From IMG/VR virus record IMGVR_UViG_3300025010_000145, positions 1 to 37,660 of that record: DNA of 37,660 bases, one strand, 5' to 3'. This DNA comes from a virus. This document shows, in pieces, positions 13,623 through 34,545 of the stretch; the first letter of the stretch is position 1, and each line of letters starts with the position of its first letter. A model generated the notes under the pieces. That model made no database searches and was not told where the DNA came from. It saw only the letters and a program-made list of their open reading frames with translations. Made by a program: the position numbers and the translations under genes.

Positions 13623-16600
13623 ATGGCTGGATTTTTTGATGATACAGAAGAAACTACTTCGCCAGTAGTAAAAAGTTTTTTTGATGATACAGAAGAAATT
13701 AATACTCCTACTCCAACTGATTCTGATTTTATACCTGGAGTAAAAAGAGGACTTCAGAATCTTCAGGCATCTGCATATGGTGCTACTGCTCTTGCAGGAT
13801 CAGGATTAAAAAAGCTTGGAATTGATTCTGCTGGCCAGAATTTGCAAGACTTTGGCATGGAGGGATATAACAGGAATATTGAAGAAGCCAAACAGTATCC
13901 TAAGAAACATTCTTTTAAAGATGTATATACTGGTAAAGCAGGAATTGGTGGTGCTGTTGACTGGGCTCAAGGAACTCTAGGTGAACTTGTACCAAGTATG
14001 GCTGAAGCAGCAGTTGGTGCGATTGCTGGATCTGTTGTTGCTCCTGGTGCAGGTACTGTTGCCGGAGGTTTGGCAGGTAGAACAATTCTTAAGAAAGGAA
14101 TTGATGAAGCGGTAAAGCAGTCTATTAAACGTGGAATTGGTGACTTGACAGAAGCTCAGGTAAGGAAACAACTTACTGGACAAGCACTGAAGAAGTTTGG
14201 TGGTAAAGTTGGTATTGCTGGATCAGTAATGCCGTTAGAATCTGGTGGAATGTACGCAGAGTTGTTGCAAAATAAAGGCATTGATGCTCCTGAGACTGCA
14301 TTACTGTTTGGTGCTTTGGCAACATCATTAGAATTTGCTGGTGGTAATAGTAAGTTAGTTGATACTTTTGTTGATGCCTTGAGTAAGGGGTCTACTGGAA
14401 CTATTAAAAAGTCTGCAAAGGAACTGCTTACAAATATTCCTCAAGAAGCTCTTCAGGAAGGTGGCCAGGAGCTGCTTAGTGTTCTTAATACTGTAGCAAA
14501 TACAGATGAGAAGTTACTGACTGCTGATAATGTTGAACGAATTATTGAAAGTATGGCTGCTGGAGCTATTGGTGGTGGTGCTGGTGCAGCAGTTAATGCA
14601 GGCTTCTCCGCACAAGCAAAAGATCCTGGGCCTGGAAAGACTGATGCAGAGATTGAGCTTGACAGGCGAGCAGCAAATATTCTCAATTTGAAAGAAGATG
14701 AACTTGGTAAGAGTATTCAAACTTTAAATGCTACTCTTAACTTGAATAAAGAAATTCTTGATGATCCTTATAAACTTGATCAGAAGGCAAGAGAGTTAAA
14801 TGTTGATCCGGCTGAATTAATTAGAAAGACTGTTGAAGATAATAAAAATAATCAAAGCCTTCTTGATCGGATTAATTCAGGAATCCAGAAGAAAGAAGAA
14901 CTGGCTAAGAAAGAATATGAAGCTCTTTCTCCTGAAGAGAAGCAAGTAAAAGAAATTGAAAATAAGTTAGCTGAGAAGAGAATTGCTGATGCTCAGAAAA
15001 TTAATGATGATCTTGATACAATTAATAAGAGAGAAGAAATAGCTCTTAAGCAATATAAGGATGAAACTGATCCGGATAAAAAGGCATCAATTGCTGATCG
15101 GATTTTTAATCTGAAGAAGGAGAAAAATACTCTTCTTGATCGACAGCTTCAGCAGAAAACTAATCAGGTTAATGAATTCGAAGAGCCGAAGAAGGCTGAT
15201 GAAATTCGTCAAGAGAAAGAGAACTTCTATAACCAGCTTTGGCTCGGTGGAGTTAATAAAGATGCAACTGAGTCTGCAAAAGTCTTTGGTGAAAAATCTA
15301 CTGAGCAGCAAGACATACTAGATAGACTTTCAACACAGATTGCAAATACTCAAAGTCAGCAAAAGAAACAAGAATTACAGAAAGTTTATGATGGATTGTT
15401 TCAGACTTTTGAACGTGACGCAAGTGAATCTGCAGAAACTATTGCTAACGCAGACACTAGTCAGTTTGATCAACTTGTTAAAGCCAAAGATCAGGAACGC
15501 CTTAACAGTATTCTTGAATCTATAGTAGTTGAACCTGATCCTCAAGCTAGGCAAACACTGTATGAGAAGATGTTCATGCAGCCTGGAGTTAAAGACGCTG
15601 CTGATTCTGCTGAGGTATTTGCTGCTCAAGGTGAAGACGCCATTGCTAACCAACGAAAGCAAGAACTTCAAAAAGTAATGTCTTCGATTACTCAAGAGAG
15701 TGATCCGGCTGTAAGGCAGAAGCTTTATAATCAAATGTTTCTTCAGCCTGGAGTTAAGAATGCTCAGGAGTCAGCTGAAGTATTTTTAACACAGAAATTT
15801 ACTGAAAGAGAAAAATCTGTTATAGAAGATTATTGGCAAGAGGTTAAGAAAGAACTTAATCTTCGCAGTGAAAAAATGACTCCTGGAACGGAAGCATTTA
15901 TGCGAAAGAAGTTCTTTGAGACTCAACTTGCTAATATTGAGAAAGATGTTCAACAAGAAGCTAAGACTCAAGATGCTGCGAAACAAAATGTTGTTCCGTC
16001 TTTAGCTGAACAGAATAAACGCCAGGTAAGGTTTCGTCAAATTGCTGAAAGCCTCGGAGATATTCCATCAGTAAATAGCCAGGCAGTTGAAACTGAGGTT
16101 CCTAGAAACTTGCCCGGAGGTTTGCAGAGTGGGTTCACTAATGAACAACAAGTAGCAGGTACTCCACAGTTTCAAGTAAACGAAAATCAAGAAACTTTAA
16201 ATAAAGTAAATCTTGATGACATTAAGAAGACTTTTCCAAATCAAGTAATTAATCAAAATGATGATGGTTCAGTCTCTGTTCAGTTCAAGAATGGTAAAGG
16301 CGTAAAGATTAATAGCATTCAAAATGCAGGTGAAGGCTTCATCAAGTTAGCTATTGAAACTGGGCAGATGTCCAAAGATAAAGTAATTTTTGGTATTACA
16401 ACGGGGAATGAAATTCTTCTTGATGAAAACTTTGCAGACAATAAGACTCTTTGGCATGAGAACAAGCATGTTCTTGACAACCTGGGATTGATTACAGAAG
16501 CAGATGATAGCGCGCTTAATAAGGAGTTTAATAAACTGAGAAAGGCAGGCAAGCTTGACTTTGCTCTGAGTACTTATAATGACCCAAAGAAGAGTGAAAA

Positions 16601-25557: not shown

Positions 25558-26091
25558 AATAAGAATATTATACTTTTATATGACCCCATTTTTTATTTGC
25601 TTTAATCATACTAATTGTTACTTCTGACACATTATATAATTTTGCTAATTTTCTAGATAATCCATGCTTGTATTTAAATTTTAACATCCATTTAATAACT
25701 TTAATAGCTTCTTCATTTAATTTTCCTTTGTAATAATTTACATTATTACTATTATAATAATCTTTCATATTATCACAATAATTACCTTCATATAAGTGTT
25801 TTGGATTTACACATTTACGGTTATTACACTTATGCAAGATAAGATTATTTTTATCTTTCATTTCATTACAACTCATAAAAGATATTCTATGTGCTAATTC
25901 TGTATATCCATTTAAATGAAATTGTCCATAACCTTTTAATAAATATGCTTGCCATTCCCAACATTCATCTTTTGTTTTAATATTAACTTTATCCCAAAAT
26001 CTTTTTATATCTTTTTTGTGTATTAACATAATTAAAATCCTATTTTATTAATTGCTTTATCTATTGACTCTTGATTAAAATTAGAAATTTC
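25558..26091 (-). mobile_element. Homing endonuclease insertion with replacement polymerase tail
   Basis: Inferred element: the HNH gene plus the last 20 codons of the current polymerase gene. Both are strikingly AT-rich and use the same AT-ending codons, unlike the upstream polymerase body. The old tail lies immediately beyond the HNH stop. The borders are estimates: one is set by the first codon of the displaced tail, the other by the matching codon in the polymerase. No terminal repeats or target duplication are obvious. Confidence 0.55.
25568..26029 (-). CDS. HNH homing endonuclease
   Basis: 153 residues. CWEWQAYLLKGYGQFHLNG, AHRISF (His47), ILHKCNNRKCVNPKHLYEG (His66, Cys68, Cys73, Asn75, His78) and DNMKDY form the HNH_3-type nuclease of SPO1-intron-like endonucleases. 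The C-terminus (about 103-153) is a helix-turn-helix DNA-binding module (LSRKLAKLYNVSEVTISMIK). It starts two bases after the polymerase stop and is far more AT-rich than its neighbours. It probably cuts the uninterrupted polymerase gene of competing phages; the target sequence is inference. Confidence 0.9.
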   Translation of the reverse strand: MLIHKKDIKRFWDKVNIKTKDECWEWQAYLLKGYGQFHLNGYTELAHRISFMSCNEMKDKNNLILHKCNNRKCVNPKHLYEGNYCDNMKDYYNSNNVNYYKGKLNEEAIKVIKWMLKFKYKHGLSRKLAKLYNVSEVTISMIKANKKWGHIKV

Positions 26092-28554
26092 AGCAGTATT
26101 TCCGGCCCATTGAGTACCTACCTTGGCATCAAGTCCGATTGTGAAGCTCTTTCCTTTGTAAGTAAATGTGTGTGTCAGATGATCTTTAATGATAAGAAGA
26201 ATCTGAGGCAAGTTTGGAATCTGGCTTTTGTGAAACCGAAATACAAATGAGTCATGAACAGTTGTCATACACCGAATGTCAAAACCATCCTTGCCAAGCC
26301 TAGGATCATTCACTACTTTAATCATTCCACGATTGAGCAACTCTGCTACTGTTGATTGAGGTTTGTAGCTATAAGCATTTCTGAATAGTGCTGCATTCAT
26401 TTCACCTAAGAACCTGCGAGGCCGCCCAAACAAATTGTAGAGAACGCGATTCTTCTGAACCTCTTCTTCGATTGATCTATGCCATCGTTTTAGGCCAGGA
26501 AAGCGATCAGAATAATTATCAAGTAAACGCTTACAATCTGATTGAGATTTGAAAATTTCTTCTTTAGCAAGATTGTCAGAGAATGTTTGAGCCCCCATTG
26601 AATAATTGGATGCATGGACAACCTTTTTGCCCATATATCTCATGGTAGATTTTTGGTCTGCCTTTTTTGTCTTAGCCTCATGAATTATTTCTTCGATTGG
26701 AACACCAAAAATCTTGCTTGCATTAAAGCTATGTACATCTATTCCTGATTCGAACGACTGAATCATGTTAGAATCTTGGGTAAGGTATGCAACTACATGA
26801 GCTTCAGCCTTGGCAAGATCACACTCACACATAATCCAATCAGGATCGGCCAATAAGTAGTACTTAAAAATATATACCTGGTTCTGTAAGTTTGTGCCCG
26901 TTCCAAAGTATGTCTTTTCTGTAGCAATCCTGCCAGAGACTGTTCCAGAGATTTTATGGTTACAACGAAGCTTATTATCCTCATCTACTGCAACATTAAA
27001 ATAAGTTGAAATGAGTTTCTGTAACTCACGCATACGAATGATAACTCTAGCTTCTGCAGAACCTTTAATTCCTTTCTTAGCAATTCTGTGCATAGCTACA
27101 GCATCGCACGATACAGCTCCAGTTTTGCGATTCACATATGGTTTGATCATGCAAATGCCATAGAAATATGCGATCATTTGCTTTGATGAAGACATATTTA
27201 ATTCTTTTCCAGCCAACTCATTCAACTGTTTTTGCAGATCAATCAGTTCAAGCTCAAGTTCTTTCTTTTTATTTTCAATGCCTGCTGGATCAGTTAATAT
27301 GCCGTTGAATTCCATTTCCATGAGTGGCTTATGAAGATTCATTGTATAATCCATGGCATCCATAGAATCAAATTCACCTAACTCTTCAAGGAGCTTCTCA
27401 GTGATAGGCAATAAGTATGCTGAGTCTTTGGCATTATAAGTCCAGTATTGTGGCCAGTTCTTAATAGCCTTAAGGTGAGATTGCTTTCCTTCGTCTTTGT
27501 AATAAGGATAGTATGTGTATGTAGAAGTTAGATAATCAAGTCCCTTTGGAAGTTCAGTATAACATATATGCTGTGCAAGCATGGTGTCAAAATAAAAGTT
27601 ATCTGTTTTAATCATCATGGTACGGAAAGTAAACATGATGTCGAACATTCCATTTTGACAAATTTTACCTATGGCTTCATCATTAAGTATTTCTGCTAGG
27701 CCAGTCCAGATTTTTATCTCTTCTGCTGTTGCCCAATAGTTGCCCTGGTTGTTCATTAGAGGAACAGACATGGAGAGAATTTTATTATCGTGGTAGACAG
27801 CCAATGAATAGCAGGTAATAAATTCTGGCGTAGCCTCAATGTCAAATGCTACATATTGCTTTGTCTTAATCAATGCATAGAATTGCATAATTTCTTCAAA
27901 GCAAGGCTTGATTTTTATTTCTACATTGTCAACGAGCAATTCTGGATCTTCAATAATACGCAGAGCTTTCGTTAAGTCTGCAATCATTGTATAGAAGTGG
28001 ATAGGCTGTCCGTATGGGAGGGTGAAAGATGGATGGTAAGACAAACCTATTATTTTACCAGCCAGTTTATCTTTCAAATGTGGGAAGTCTTCAGCATGGT
28101 AGAAAGAACCACGATACTTTGTGATTGAATCAAACTTAGGCTCATCGAGCAATAGCCTCATCGGAGTAGCACCAAGCAACATTATGACTTTGCCTGGAAA
28201 TTGTGCAAGCTCATCAATTAGGGCTGCTTGCAACTTGGCCCAGTCTGGATGACGATAACCTTTATCAGTCCATAAGACAGCGGTATTGTTTTTTGGGAAC
28301 TTAGTTTTGCAGGCATTAGTTAGATAAATTTTGTATCGTGCGAGTCTGACTGCTGCACAGATGCGATTAAGCTGAGAGCCTGTCGGACCAACGAATGGTT
28401 CGTTCTTCAGGACTTCTATTTCGCCTGGAGCTTCGCCAACCATAGCGATTTCAGCAGTAAGTATGTTGTCAGTTGGAGCGCACTCTACAGCCAAGCAATT
28501 GAAAGAACCTTCTTTCTGCGGAGTTGCTGTAGTTGATATGCTAGGAATTATCAT
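26032..28554 (-). CDS. Uracil-DNA glycosylase / DNA polymerase family A fusion
   Basis: 840 residues. Residues about 30-200 match family-4-like uracil-DNA glycosylase: VGEAPGEIE (39-47), EPFVGPTGSQL and a late YHPSF (His174). Cysteines at 20, 25, 66 and 82 are possible iron-sulfur ligands, though the first pair is not the usual CxxC. A proofreading domain follows: FDIE (Asp238, Glu240), CQNGMFDIMF and YNAKDSAYL. The polymerase palm has motif A CDLAKAEAHV (Asp579), motif B RYMGKKVVHASNYSMGA and motif C VHDS (Asp768). The Glu usual after that Asp is replaced by Ser769. It would replicate the genome and, through the first domain, remove or sense uracil. The last 20 codons appear to have been replaced by the HNH insertion. 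Confidence 0.93.
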   Translation of the reverse strand: MIIPSISTTATPQKEGSFNCLAVECAPTDNILTAEIAMVGEAPGEIEVLKNEPFVGPTGSQLNRICAAVRLARYKIYLTNACKTKFPKNNTAVLWTDKGYRHPDWAKLQAALIDELAQFPGKVIMLLGATPMRLLLDEPKFDSITKYRGSFYHAEDFPHLKDKLAGKIIGLSYHPSFTLPYGQPIHFYTMIADLTKALRIIEDPELLVDNVEIKIKPCFEEIMQFYALIKTKQYVAFDIEATPEFITCYSLAVYHDNKILSMSVPLMNNQGNYWATAEEIKIWTGLAEILNDEAIGKICQNGMFDIMFTFRTMMIKTDNFYFDTMLAQHICYTELPKGLDYLTSTYTYYPYYKDEGKQSHLKAIKNWPQYWTYNAKDSAYLLPITEKLLEELGEFDSMDAMDYTMNLHKPLMEMEFNGILTDPAGIENKKKELELELIDLQKQLNELAGKELNMSSSKQMIAYFYGICMIKPYVNRKTGAVSCDAVAMHRIAKKGIKGSAEARVIIRMRELQKLISTYFNVAVDEDNKLRCNHKISGTVSGRIATEKTYFGTGTNLQNQVYIFKYYLLADPDWIMCECDLAKAEAHVVAYLTQDSNMIQSFESGIDVHSFNASKIFGVPIEEIIHEAKTKKADQKSTMRYMGKKVVHASNYSMGAQTFSDNLAKEEIFKSQSDCKRLLDNYSDRFPGLKRWHRSIEEEVQKNRVLYNLFGRPRRFLGEMNAALFRNAYSYKPQSTVAELLNRGMIKVVNDPRLGKDGFDIRCMTTVHDSFVFRFHKSQIPNLPQILLIIKDHLTHTFTYKGKSFTIGLDAKVGTQWAGNTAEISNFNQESIDKAINKIGF

Positions 28555-31717: not shown

Positions 31718-33472
31718 TCACCGTAATAAGTTAAAAAGTTGTTCCTCAGTTATCTGAGGGATGTTGTAACGAGTTGCCTTTTCTATCTTAGTTCTGCCTG
31801 GATCATCTCCGACGACCAAGTAGTTTGTTTCCCTCGTTACTCCAGATGAAAATTCATATCCGTAAGTGTTCAAAATTTCGATCATAGTTTCTCGTGACTG
31901 ACTTAATGATCCTGTGATGCAATAAATTGCTTTCGCTTCACTGGGTAGTGCGGCGAAGGAGAAGTTTTTCATCTCTTTAATGGCTTCAGTATAAATAGTA
32001 GCTGCTTCAACAAAGCTGCGTTTAGCATTATCAGTTATGTGAATGTTAATCTGACCAGTCTTTAAATATTGGCAAAGCCGCAAAGATGATTTATATGCTA
32101 ATCCTGGTAAGCCAAGGCCAGCTACGAAATGTGCCATTGTGCATTGATTGTTCATTGAAAATACTTGCTCAGCGATATTACTATAAATGGCTATGCCAAT
32201 TGTATTTATAATGTCTGGCACAAGGTCATAGCTAAGTGGATCGAGAAGTGCCCAGGGCTTTGTTGAAAGAACTGAATAACATTTTTCATTCTGAAGGAGT
32301 TTTTCTATAATGCCTTCACCTACTCCGTCGATTTTGATTCCTTTCTGAGAATAGAAATAAGCAATGGATACAATGAGTTTAGCTATGCAGTTATTTCCAT
32401 TACAGACAAGATGTACTCCATCCCAAGATAATACATCATTACATTTTGGGCAAAAAGCTGGAAGTTGTTCATGTGCATCATGTTCAGAGGGTTCTTTAAC
32501 ATTAATTATTTTAGGAATTATCTCTCCAGCTTTTCCTACAGTTATAATTGAATTAGATGTGATTCCTTTATTTATTATCCAGGCTGCATTATTGCCTGTT
32601 ACGCGGTTATTGGTAGTGCCACAAAGTTCAATTGGTTCATAAATGACTGTTGGAATTGCTCGACCGAGCCTACTTATATTCCATTCAATATTAACAACTT
32701 TTGTTTCTTTAACTTGGATTGGAGGCTTCCAGGCTATACTCCAGTTATTGGTCTGGCCATTATTACCTGCAACCAGTCGCACTTTTTCATCCGCCACTTT
32801 GATCATAAGTCCATCCATCGGATAGATCTTCGACCATTTGTTATATGTCTCAAGCAGAAAATCTCCCATAGCTTCTAAGCTACCGGAGTAGGTGTATTCT
32901 TCAAAGAGGTTGCCATGATTATGGGGGATTGCTGTCATCATGGCAGAAGGCTTGTCATATTTGCGATCTAGCCAGCCAGCGACTACATTTCTTGGATTTG
33001 CTCCATAATCTGGATTCCACTCATTCAATGGGATGAGAATTTCAACTGGTTGAAAGTGCCTAAGCTGGAATGGAAACGTAATGTATGTCATTAAGTGAGT
33101 TATGTCTCGTCCACATCTACCGTCACCTTCAAGAGTAATGTTTACTCCAGAGTCTGTGAGTGTTATAACTGCTGCACAGCCATCGTATTTTGGTTCGATC
33201 CGAAGTTTGTATGAGCCAAACCTTGTAAGGAATGGCTTAAGGTCGAGCATATTAAATGCTTTGTTCGTTCCATAGATTGGGTGCTTGTGCCAGGTTTTGC
33301 CCGTAAGAGCAGTCCGTCCTTGTGCAGTATGGTAGAGGATATTATTATGTGGATCGATTGCATAAAGTTGTTGCCATAACAGATCGTATTCGCTATCTGT
33401 CATGAATGGTATGCCAGAAGCATAGGCCATGTTTGCTTGGGAGATTTCTTTTAAGAGCTGCTCTTTATTCAT
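31718..33472 (-). CDS. ligA: NAD-dependent DNA ligase
   Basis: 584 residues. The Ia region has SEYDLLW; the nucleotidyl-transfer lysine is Lys95 in EPKYDGCAAV. GDGRCGRDIT, an OB-fold PPIQVKETKVVNIEWNISRLGR, a four-cysteine zinc finger (FCPKCNDVLSWDGVHLVCNGNNC), a helix-hairpin-helix part (LGLPGLAYKSSLRLCQYL) and a BRCT domain at the end (TNYLVVGDDPGRTK) complete LigA. It seals nicks using NAD+. Bacterial LigA is about 670 residues, so this version is trimmed. The start at 33472 is preferred, five bases after GGTGA; the ATG at 33475 and a TTG at 33484 are alternatives. Confidence 0.95.
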   Translation of the reverse strand: MNKEQLLKEISQANMAYASGIPFMTDSEYDLLWQQLYAIDPHNNILYHTAQGRTALTGKTWHKHPIYGTNKAFNMLDLKPFLTRFGSYKLRIEPKYDGCAAVITLTDSGVNITLEGDGRCGRDITHLMTYITFPFQLRHFQPVEILIPLNEWNPDYGANPRNVVAGWLDRKYDKPSAMMTAIPHNHGNLFEEYTYSGSLEAMGDFLLETYNKWSKIYPMDGLMIKVADEKVRLVAGNNGQTNNWSIAWKPPIQVKETKVVNIEWNISRLGRAIPTVIYEPIELCGTTNNRVTGNNAAWIINKGITSNSIITVGKAGEIIPKIINVKEPSEHDAHEQLPAFCPKCNDVLSWDGVHLVCNGNNCIAKLIVSIAYFYSQKGIKIDGVGEGIIEKLLQNEKCYSVLSTKPWALLDPLSYDLVPDIINTIGIAIYSNIAEQVFSMNNQCTMAHFVAGLGLPGLAYKSSLRLCQYLKTGQINIHITDNAKRSFVEAATIYTEAIKEMKNFSFAALPSEAKAIYCITGSLSQSRETMIEILNTYGYEFSSGVTRETNYLVVGDDPGRTKIEKATRYNIPQITEEQLFNLLR

Positions 33473-33716
33473 CATAATCACCAAAAGTTATTACATTTAA
33501 ATACATTGGAATAAACTTTCCGATGTTATTAGAAACCTCTAAGAGAGCATTGCAAGCAAAACAAGTAACTTTTTCACCATATAGATCAACAGCTATTCTT
33601 GATGGAACTTCAGAACGGTCATATTCTTTCATTCTACATTCATCAGCTTTTGATTGCACATGAATTGATGATCCACAAGCTGGACAATAAAAATTAACTG
33701 TATCAAAAGATCCCAT
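33465..33716 (-). CDS. Zinc-ribbon protein
   Basis: 83 residues. CPACGSSI at about residue 11 and CFACNALL at about residue 52 form two CxxC knuckles of a zinc ribbon; between them is a charged helical insert (DECRMKEYDRSEVP). AAAGGAG is near the ATG and lies in a small hairpin that could mask it. The 3' end overlaps the ligase start region. Probably binds DNA or an RNA polymerase partner; not recognised as a named family. Confidence 0.7.
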   Translation of the reverse strand: MGSFDTVNFYCPACGSSIHVQSKADECRMKEYDRSEVPSRIAVDLYGEKVTCFACNALLEVSNNIGKFIPMYLNVITFGDYDE

Positions 33717-33724
33717 TGGTAAGC

Positions 33725-33737
33725 TCCTTTAGAAGGA
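33725..33737 (-). promoter_or_regulatory. Hairpin overlapping the ribosome site of the zinc-ribbon gene
   Basis: On the - strand TCCTT-CTA-AAGGA forms a 5-bp stem with a 3-base loop and includes AAGGA of the Shine-Dalgarno (AAAGGAG). Folding would hide the site. It could modulate translation, but a stem this short may also be chance. Confidence 0.35.
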
Positions 33738-33795
33738 TATTTATCTTTGCTAAACATTAATATTTTAGCCGATTAATTCTTAGTAAAGATAAATA
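33738..33795 (-). promoter_or_regulatory. Long AT-rich imperfect hairpin upstream of the zinc-ribbon gene
   Basis: Arms 33738-33753 and 33780-33795 pair over 16 positions with one mismatch (for example TTTATCTTT with AAAGATAAA, and CTAA with TTAG), loop 26 bases containing two ATTAAT copies. It lies between the strong terminator and the ribosome site of the zinc-ribbon gene. It may mark the 5' end of the next transcript, act as an operator or protect the RNA. No convincing -35/-10 pair was found. Confidence 0.5.
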
Positions 33796-33800
33796 AAAAT

Positions 33801-33861
33801 AAAAAGATGCCGTTCACTTACTTGCGAATCATTCAACAGTTCGTTCATAAGTGAACAGCAT
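33801..33861 (-). terminator. Strong leftward rho-independent terminator
   Basis: A 14-bp stem on the - strand, ATGCTGTTCACTTA (plus 33848-33861) with TAAGTGAACGGCAT (plus 33807-33820), has one G-U pair and a 27-base loop that can itself fold through CGAA/TTCG. It is followed by C and TTTTTATTTTTATTT. It closes the structured locus and would separate the recombination genes from the ligase-methyltransferase-polymerase genes. Confidence 0.8.
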
Positions 33862-33908
33862 GTTTTGCTTATTTCGACATTTTTGTAGGCGTCACATCAA
33901 CGCCTCGT

Positions 33909-33992
33909 TCAGAATGACATTGTTCCGGCAATGCCAAACCTAGTTAACTGAAAGTGGTAACTAGACTCTAATATCGAATTAAACTTGATCAT
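33909..33992 (-). CDS. Possible 27-codon leader ORF within the structured locus
   Basis: An ATG at 33992 has AAGGA five bases upstream and runs 27 codons to a TGA at 33909-33911. It contains the CTAGTTA/TAACTAG and GGCATTG/CAATGTC hairpins. It may be a leader peptide whose translation reshapes the RNA, or a chance frame. No family or codon evidence separates these. Confidence 0.25.
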   Translation of the reverse strand: MIKFNSILESSYHFQLTRFGIAGTMSF

Positions 33993-34122
33993 AATTATCC
34001 TTGTTTAAAATGAGTGGATAGTCTGTAGTTTCGTATCACTTAATCTCAGCCTCGGCGGGACATCACGGCCAGGTTCTACTGGTAGCAGACTGTTTACCTA
34101 TTCCACTCATAGTTTTTATTAA

Positions 34123-34545
34123 TTAAACGACTCTTGCAATTTCATTCCGGGGCTGGCCGACCTTGATCGGATTGCCATCATCGTCTGTCGACATGCCATC
34201 ATTAAAACTGAGTTCAGCCGTAAAATTGAGGCCAACCAGATCAGATTCGTCAGTTTCCTGATCGGGATCAAGTCCCAGTGCGCGAAGGAAATCTTTAACC
34301 ATCCTCCACATGAGGTTATTCTTTTCCTCATCATCGCCCTGATAATCTTTGTAATTTCCATACCAGAGAGTGTGAAAGATAGTTGAAGCGTTATCTTCTC
34401 CGTCGACGTTAATGATGAGTTGACAACCATATCTTCCGGTACGCTGAGACTTGGTCTCTTTAACCTTAGAGATGGTCAAGTCATATTCGCCAGCTTCAAC
34501 AGGTGCTTTGTCAGGAATTTCGGACAGATTAGGAATCATAGACAT
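34123..34545 (-). CDS. DUF669-type protein, candidate ssDNA-binding protein
   Basis: 140 residues. GEYDLTISKVKETKSQRTGRYGCQLIINVDGED then TIFHTLWYG, MVKDFLRALGLD, LVGLNFTAELSFNDG and a QPRNEI end follow the DUF669 pattern of phage recombination cassettes. DUF669 members lie beside Sak4-like ATPases and have been proposed to bind single-stranded DNA. Here the Sak4-like ATPase and Cas4-like nuclease are two to five genes upstream, which supports that role. The C-terminus lacks the acidic tip of SSB. Its ribosome site lies in the loop of an AT-rich palindrome. Confidence 0.75.
   Translation of the reverse strand: MSMIPNLSEIPDKAPVEAGEYDLTISKVKETKSQRTGRYGCQLIINVDGEDNASTIFHTLWYGNYKDYQGDDEEKNNLMWRMVKDFLRALGLDPDQETDESDLVGLNFTAELSFNDGMSTDDDGNPIKVGQPRNEIARVV

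Follow-up and report, generated by a model that had tools for sequence, protein, structure and literature searches.

The put RNAs of phage HK022 are two simple hairpins that act as antiterminators. In leader-peptide attenuators, the choice between a terminator and an anti-terminator is set by translation. Phage genomes furthermore contain small solitary RNAs that are directed at the host, such as the RNA anti-CRISPRs (Racrs), which mimic CRISPR repeats (PMC10651486). Here we describe a gap between early genes of a phage that contains two separate structured RNAs, RNA-A and RNA-B, together with a DNA-level dyad and a leader hairpin. The two RNAs are independent of each other, and in related phages the same place (the slot) holds both of them, RNA-B alone, neither of the two, or other structured and tRNA-like RNAs.

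The stretch of DNA that we analysed (the window) is a 37,660-base IMG/VR viral record of an unclassified bacterial virus. Its right half is a leftward early region with genes for a PD-(D/E)XK nuclease, an AAA ATPase, a DUF669/ssDNA-binding-like protein, a zinc-ribbon-like ORF, an NAD-dependent DNA ligase, a DNA methylase, a DNA polymerase A with a uracil-DNA-glycosylase domain and ThyX. In the family A polymerase (26032-28554), the uracil-DNA-glycosylase domain is fused N-terminally; the best annotated relative of the protein belongs to a Desulfofustis phage, at an identity of only 31%. The preliminary description had reported about 400 bases without a sizable gene in a packed genome, and we indeed find a gap of 406 bases (33717-34122), which is the largest non-coding stretch of a window that is about 96% coding. 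On its upstream side lies the DUF669-like gene (34123-34545, minus strand), which is the conserved anchor of the slot and whose product matches Pfam PF05037 (E 3e-4) and the single-strand DNA-binding protein PHROG 378 (E 2e-4). The downstream gene in the window is a small zinc-ribbon-like ORF (33465-33716, minus strand), with a Pfam zinc ribbon match below the curated cut-off, and then comes the ligase (31718-33484, minus strand, by Pfam). Among GenBank phages, there was neither a DNA match to the gap region nor a relative of the DUF669-like protein.

The minus strand of the gap has a folding energy of -106 kcal/mol compared to -78 +/- 5 kcal/mol for dinucleotide shuffles (z about -5), and none of 100 shuffles folded equally well. 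For comparison, z-scores range from -2.8 to +0.1 in four other gaps that are 60 bases or longer, and across 20 coding windows, each 400 nt in length, they average -0.3 with a minimum of -3.3. The gap had been described as holding six hairpins in series and as encoding a discrete RNA of about 310 bases. The hairpin positions agree with our folds, including a 101-base domain with stems of 9 bp and 6 bp (RNA-A), a 14-bp hairpin (element C) and an AT-rich hairpin (element D). However, the three hairpins given as 7, 7 and 6 bp are not serial but together form a single four-way junction (RNA-B) with arms of 7, 8 and 6 bp, whose 8-bp closing stem (33971-33978 with 33873-33880) had been missed. Instead of a single RNA, the gap thus contains two independent RNA families, a dispersed DNA dyad and a leader hairpin that in relatives is attached to varying downstream genes. 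The G+C content of the first domain is 48% and not 52%, with nearby genes at 31-44%. The central proposal, an undescribed structured RNA rather than spacer, is supported: neither RNA-A nor RNA-B matches an Rfam 15 family at the gathering thresholds, the best sub-threshold matches are far below these and none is convincing, and both RNAs show strong covariation and are conserved among relatives.

RNA-A (34010-34110, minus strand) consists of the stems P1a (9 bp) and P1b (6 bp), a P2 hairpin of 4 bp and a P3 of 3 bp. A 10-nt/1-nt internal loop (AYAGGKAAAY) lies between P1a and P1b, and the short P3 encloses the conserved core GAUGUC-NNN-CCGAGGCUGAGAU-NAAGUGAUA. As the energy signal of RNA-A by itself is modest (z -1.6), its case is carried by covariation. 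Among five distinct sequences, 10 of 20 pairs are changed on both sides and none is broken, with L013 and L201 as the only sequences that contribute double-sided changes. This was reached by none of 500 shuffles, a count that is not a probability because the shuffles ignore the relatedness of the sequences. Four of the sequences are slot variants, and the fifth was detected with a core-pattern scan in the late-region contig L201, which belongs to a related phage and shares a metagenome with other copies. There, RNA-A lies between two ORFs, and the sequences of P1a and P1b both differ with intact complementarity; the internal loop and the core are almost unchanged. An RNA-A model (R2) matched 8 of 51 phage records with E-values of about 1e-30 or better, RNA-A being absent from the other 43, and only short chance matches were found in the plasmids searched. 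Two further core-pattern matches (L199 and L200) are probably due to chance, as their phages are unrelated and their neighbourhoods differ. For the RNA-A core, resemblances to a hammerhead, a k-turn or box C/D motif and a TPP riboswitch were weighed by eye and rejected, as defining residues are not kept between the copies or there is no Rfam match. By eye, the core resembles part of the peptidyl-transferase region of 23S rRNA, but local alignment is no better than for shuffles, and the local similarity of both RNAs of the window to 16S and 23S rRNA scores below the shuffle means; rRNA mimicry was thus rejected.

RNA-B (33873-33978, minus strand) is closed by P1 (8 bp) and has three arms: P2 (7 bp with an 11-nt loop), P3 (8 bp with a 6-nt loop) and P4 (6 bp with a 7-nt loop). 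Loops 2 and 4 may form a 3-bp contact (CAC with GUG, and CGC with GCG in L027), for which the support is a single covarying pair. In an alignment of 13 distinct copies, 99.5% of the cells in P1-P4 and the loop contact are standard pairs, and when the structure is slid along the alignment, paired cells collapse to 29-47%. Ten pairs are changed on both sides, with six double-sided pairs in P3 alone; none of 500 shuffles reached this, again a count rather than a probability, since relatedness is ignored. In the most diverged copy (L027), most of P3 is rewritten. The wobble cells comprise 34 G-U compared to 1 A-C; RNA-B is therefore on the minus strand, which is also the strand of the flanking genes. 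Pattern scans detected RNA-B in 20 viral contigs, in the slot wherever its position was examined, and a model run over the collected loci gave no further convincing copy.

To compare the slot across relatives, we used 35 viral loci retrieved with the DUF669-like protein, two more found by profile and one further locus on a contig of 11.6 kb that is listed under a metagenome-assembled genome of Bacteroidales. In the loci examined, the stretch after the DUF669-like gene is non-coding for about 100-670 bases, and the mean fold z over the slots of 29 loci, with the window among them, is -5.2. RNA-A and RNA-B occur together in the window and L003, with a tRNA-like RNA in L001, with another RNA in L015 and with a candidate RNA E in L013. 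RNA-B occurs without RNA-A in seven loci (L002, L004, L006, L009, L016, L018 and L027), of which L002 has RNA-B alone, L009 a tRNA-like RNA in addition and L004 RNA E in addition; L005 and L012 have neither A nor B. Thus, the slot contents differ between close relatives whose flanking gene is 88-95% identical. For instance, the flanking gene of the window is 95% identical to that of L012 and 94% to that of L002, whereas the slots hold A and B, neither, and B only, respectively.

More distant members have other structured candidates (E, F and those of L019, L021 and L024) or tRNA-like RNAs with aberrant anticodon arms. Candidate RNA E is found in L004, L013, L017 and L018, candidate RNA F in L017 and L103, and other candidates are in the slots of L015, L016, L019, L021 and L024. 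RNAs E and F also keep complementary stems, and the closing stem of F is kept through sequence changes. The further candidates had no Rfam matches where scanned, nor was there an above-threshold match at A or B in the slots of relatives that carry them; the only family above thresholds in the scanned slots was tRNA. The tRNA-like RNAs (L001, L009, L021, L023, L034, L103 and L198) have an acceptor and a T-arm, and their anticodon domain is missing, enlarged or aberrant; those of L021 and L034 pass the Rfam tRNA threshold and have aberrant anticodon arms. The tRNA-like RNAs of L001 and L009 carry AGTAGCGGCGAGCGAA, which is identical to a conserved 23S rRNA segment, and their similarity to 23S rRNA over the whole RNA is only borderline.

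Although the gap has no sizable gene, as the preliminary description had stated, a mini-ORF of 27 codons (MIKFNSILESSYHFQLTRFGIAGTMSF, then stop; 33909-33992, minus strand) with the Shine-Dalgarno-like sequence AAGGA enters RNA-B. Its start codon and frame are kept in all 13 copies of RNA-B (one start is TTG) and the Shine-Dalgarno-like sequence in 12 of 13; the copies have indels of 3 and 6 nt and stop at codons 17-27 with a variable C-terminus. Such conservation speaks for the main rival explanation, a cis-acting translation-coupled regulator, where a ribosome starting at the mini-ORF would unfold RNA-B and thereby influence either whether transcription ends at element C or what becomes of the downstream mRNA, with RNA-A as a further cis element. 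It would also fit that hairpin C and its T-rich tract come after RNA-B in the window and that all elements are on the sense strand of an operon. We nevertheless consider this explanation doubtful. The same downstream genes occur with or without RNA-B in front of them (L005 and L012 are without it), and RNA-B is followed by tRNA-like RNAs, other RNAs or several different genes. Other RNAs part it from element C in L001, L009, L015 and L103, the T-tract after C is not general, and the Shine-Dalgarno-like sequence is lost in L103. Furthermore, RNA-A has no mini-ORF of this kind and is also present in a late-region context. The anatomy is only partly compatible with a leader-peptide attenuator; what speaks for a cis role coupled to translation are the conserved start codon and Shine-Dalgarno-like sequence that lead into RNA-B, which a trans role does not explain.

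Element C (33808-33860, minus strand; z -5.8) is followed in the window by a T-rich tract (33791-33807) and is possibly a terminator; in some relatives, the second arm of the hairpin and the T-tract are not conserved. Element C starts with the dyad GTTCANNNNTGAAC (33843-33856, no strand assigned), which each of the 35 loci retrieved with the DUF669-like protein has in its slot. With up to 2 mismatches, every one of the records G000-G026 contains 2-11 matches to the dyad, which lie on either strand and also within genes, compared to 0-2 for a reversed-pattern control; as ACTTGNYGTTCANNNNTGAAC, it is found at 33843-33863, with a second strong copy at 16133-16153. The dyad is best read as a putative DNA site bound by a phage protein, which would be operator-, stoperator- or centromere-like. 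Its dispersed and strand-independent occurrence also agrees with the notion that the gap contains only DNA-level elements (an origin, a recombination or a packaging site) whose palindromes merely look like RNA. We keep this reading for the dyad, but for RNA-A and RNA-B it is already disfavoured and we regard it as very improbable: the excess of G-U over A-C cells in RNA-B is expected for an RNA of one strand and not for DNA cruciforms, A and B are not simple palindromes but combine several helices with unpaired cores that are conserved, and both are absent from many phages of the family.

Element D (33739-33794, minus strand; z -3.5) is an AT-rich hairpin that immediately precedes the ribosome-binding site of the next gene. 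It is near-identical in most close relatives (e.g. L001, L002, L008, L012, L013 and L015) and stands ahead of different downstream genes, as genes other than the zinc-ribbon-like ORF occupy the first downstream place in relatives; it thus looks like a shared leader. The leader is constant before varying genes, as if leader and RNA slot together formed a recombination joint. The position of D directly after the slot, the slot's location inside an operon and the tRNA-like RNAs that keep acceptor and T-arm without a normal anticodon arm could all be read as processing punctuation, where the elements, including the anticodon-defective tRNA-like RNAs, would mark sites of the early polycistronic mRNA that are cleaved or shielded by host RNases (P, Z, III or E). 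We find this unlikely, as it explains neither why A and B have long unpaired cores that are conserved nor why some phages have several such elements in series.

We therefore favour, at a confidence evenly poised between yes and no, that this phage family has a slot for RNA genes in its early region, represented in the window by the gap, and that the RNAs of the slot are predicted trans-acting, host-directed accessory RNAs. That A and B would be trans-acting RNA genes is suggested by their optional presence, the lack of a fixed downstream gene, the fast replacement and the second context of RNA-A. RNA genes are further favoured by the strong covariation of A and B, the strand bias of B and the mean z of the slots. 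Against them counts that no promoter-like site lies directly before A or B, and the conserved start codon and Shine-Dalgarno-like sequence of RNA-B would not be needed in a purely trans role. RNA-A and RNA-B would be released from the early transcript by cleavage or termination, fold independently once freed and act in trans, and such RNA genes would be gained and lost like counter-defence or host-takeover genes. An accessory or counter-defence role of A and B is inferred only from their location and turnover; they might, for instance, serve as decoys for a nuclease or an RNA-binding protein of the host, where the host-directed step is the least certain. More tentatively, the slot may be a dedicated exchange site for structured RNA genes, with A and B as two of many trans-acting effectors that are swapped; it would then correspond, in phages, to a defence or counter-defence island, but with RNA rather than protein as its cargo.

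If this is true, two RNA families without known relatives are added and, as the weightier point, there is a site at which the phages of one family repeatedly exchange structured RNAs and unusual tRNA-like genes. Searches for accessory genes of phages usually look for proteins, so that gene callers would miss such RNA cargo. With covariation-backed models, expression, binding partners and phenotypes become directly testable.

Phage accessory loci and phage non-coding RNAs are known kinds, whereas an RNA-trading slot is undescribed as far as the literature covered shows: the open-licence papers covered contain no description of a slot that trades structured RNAs. A type III toxin-antitoxin RNA, which would consist of tandem RNA repeats next to a ToxN-like gene, was rejected, as there are no such repeats and the downstream zinc-ribbon-like ORF matches no PADLOC family. 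As in leader-peptide attenuators, a mini-ORF with a Shine-Dalgarno-like sequence overlaps a structured RNA and a terminator-like hairpin follows; unlike in these, RNA-B is optional, has no one downstream gene and often does not adjoin the hairpin. The put-type RNAs are likewise structured RNAs in phage operons, and RNA-A occurs in two operon contexts; however, put RNAs are two simple hairpins, and RNA-A is missing from most of the phage records. Neither RNA-A nor RNA-B has an ARAGORN call or an Rfam tRNA match, and both differ from tRNAs and tRNA-like RNAs of phages in lacking a T-loop sequence and a CCA end and in having unpaired linkers of 3-9 bases. Yet the tRNA-like RNAs of relatives fill the slot that holds A and B, and RNA-B shares with them a junction of four helices, three of which are hairpin arms, and a candidate contact between loops; its linkers and loop sequences are not those of tRNA. 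In contrast to Racrs, A and B are 100-nt multi-helix RNAs without an Rfam match of any kind; they resemble Racrs as small solitary RNAs of phage genomes that, in the case of A and B by prediction only, would be directed at the host.
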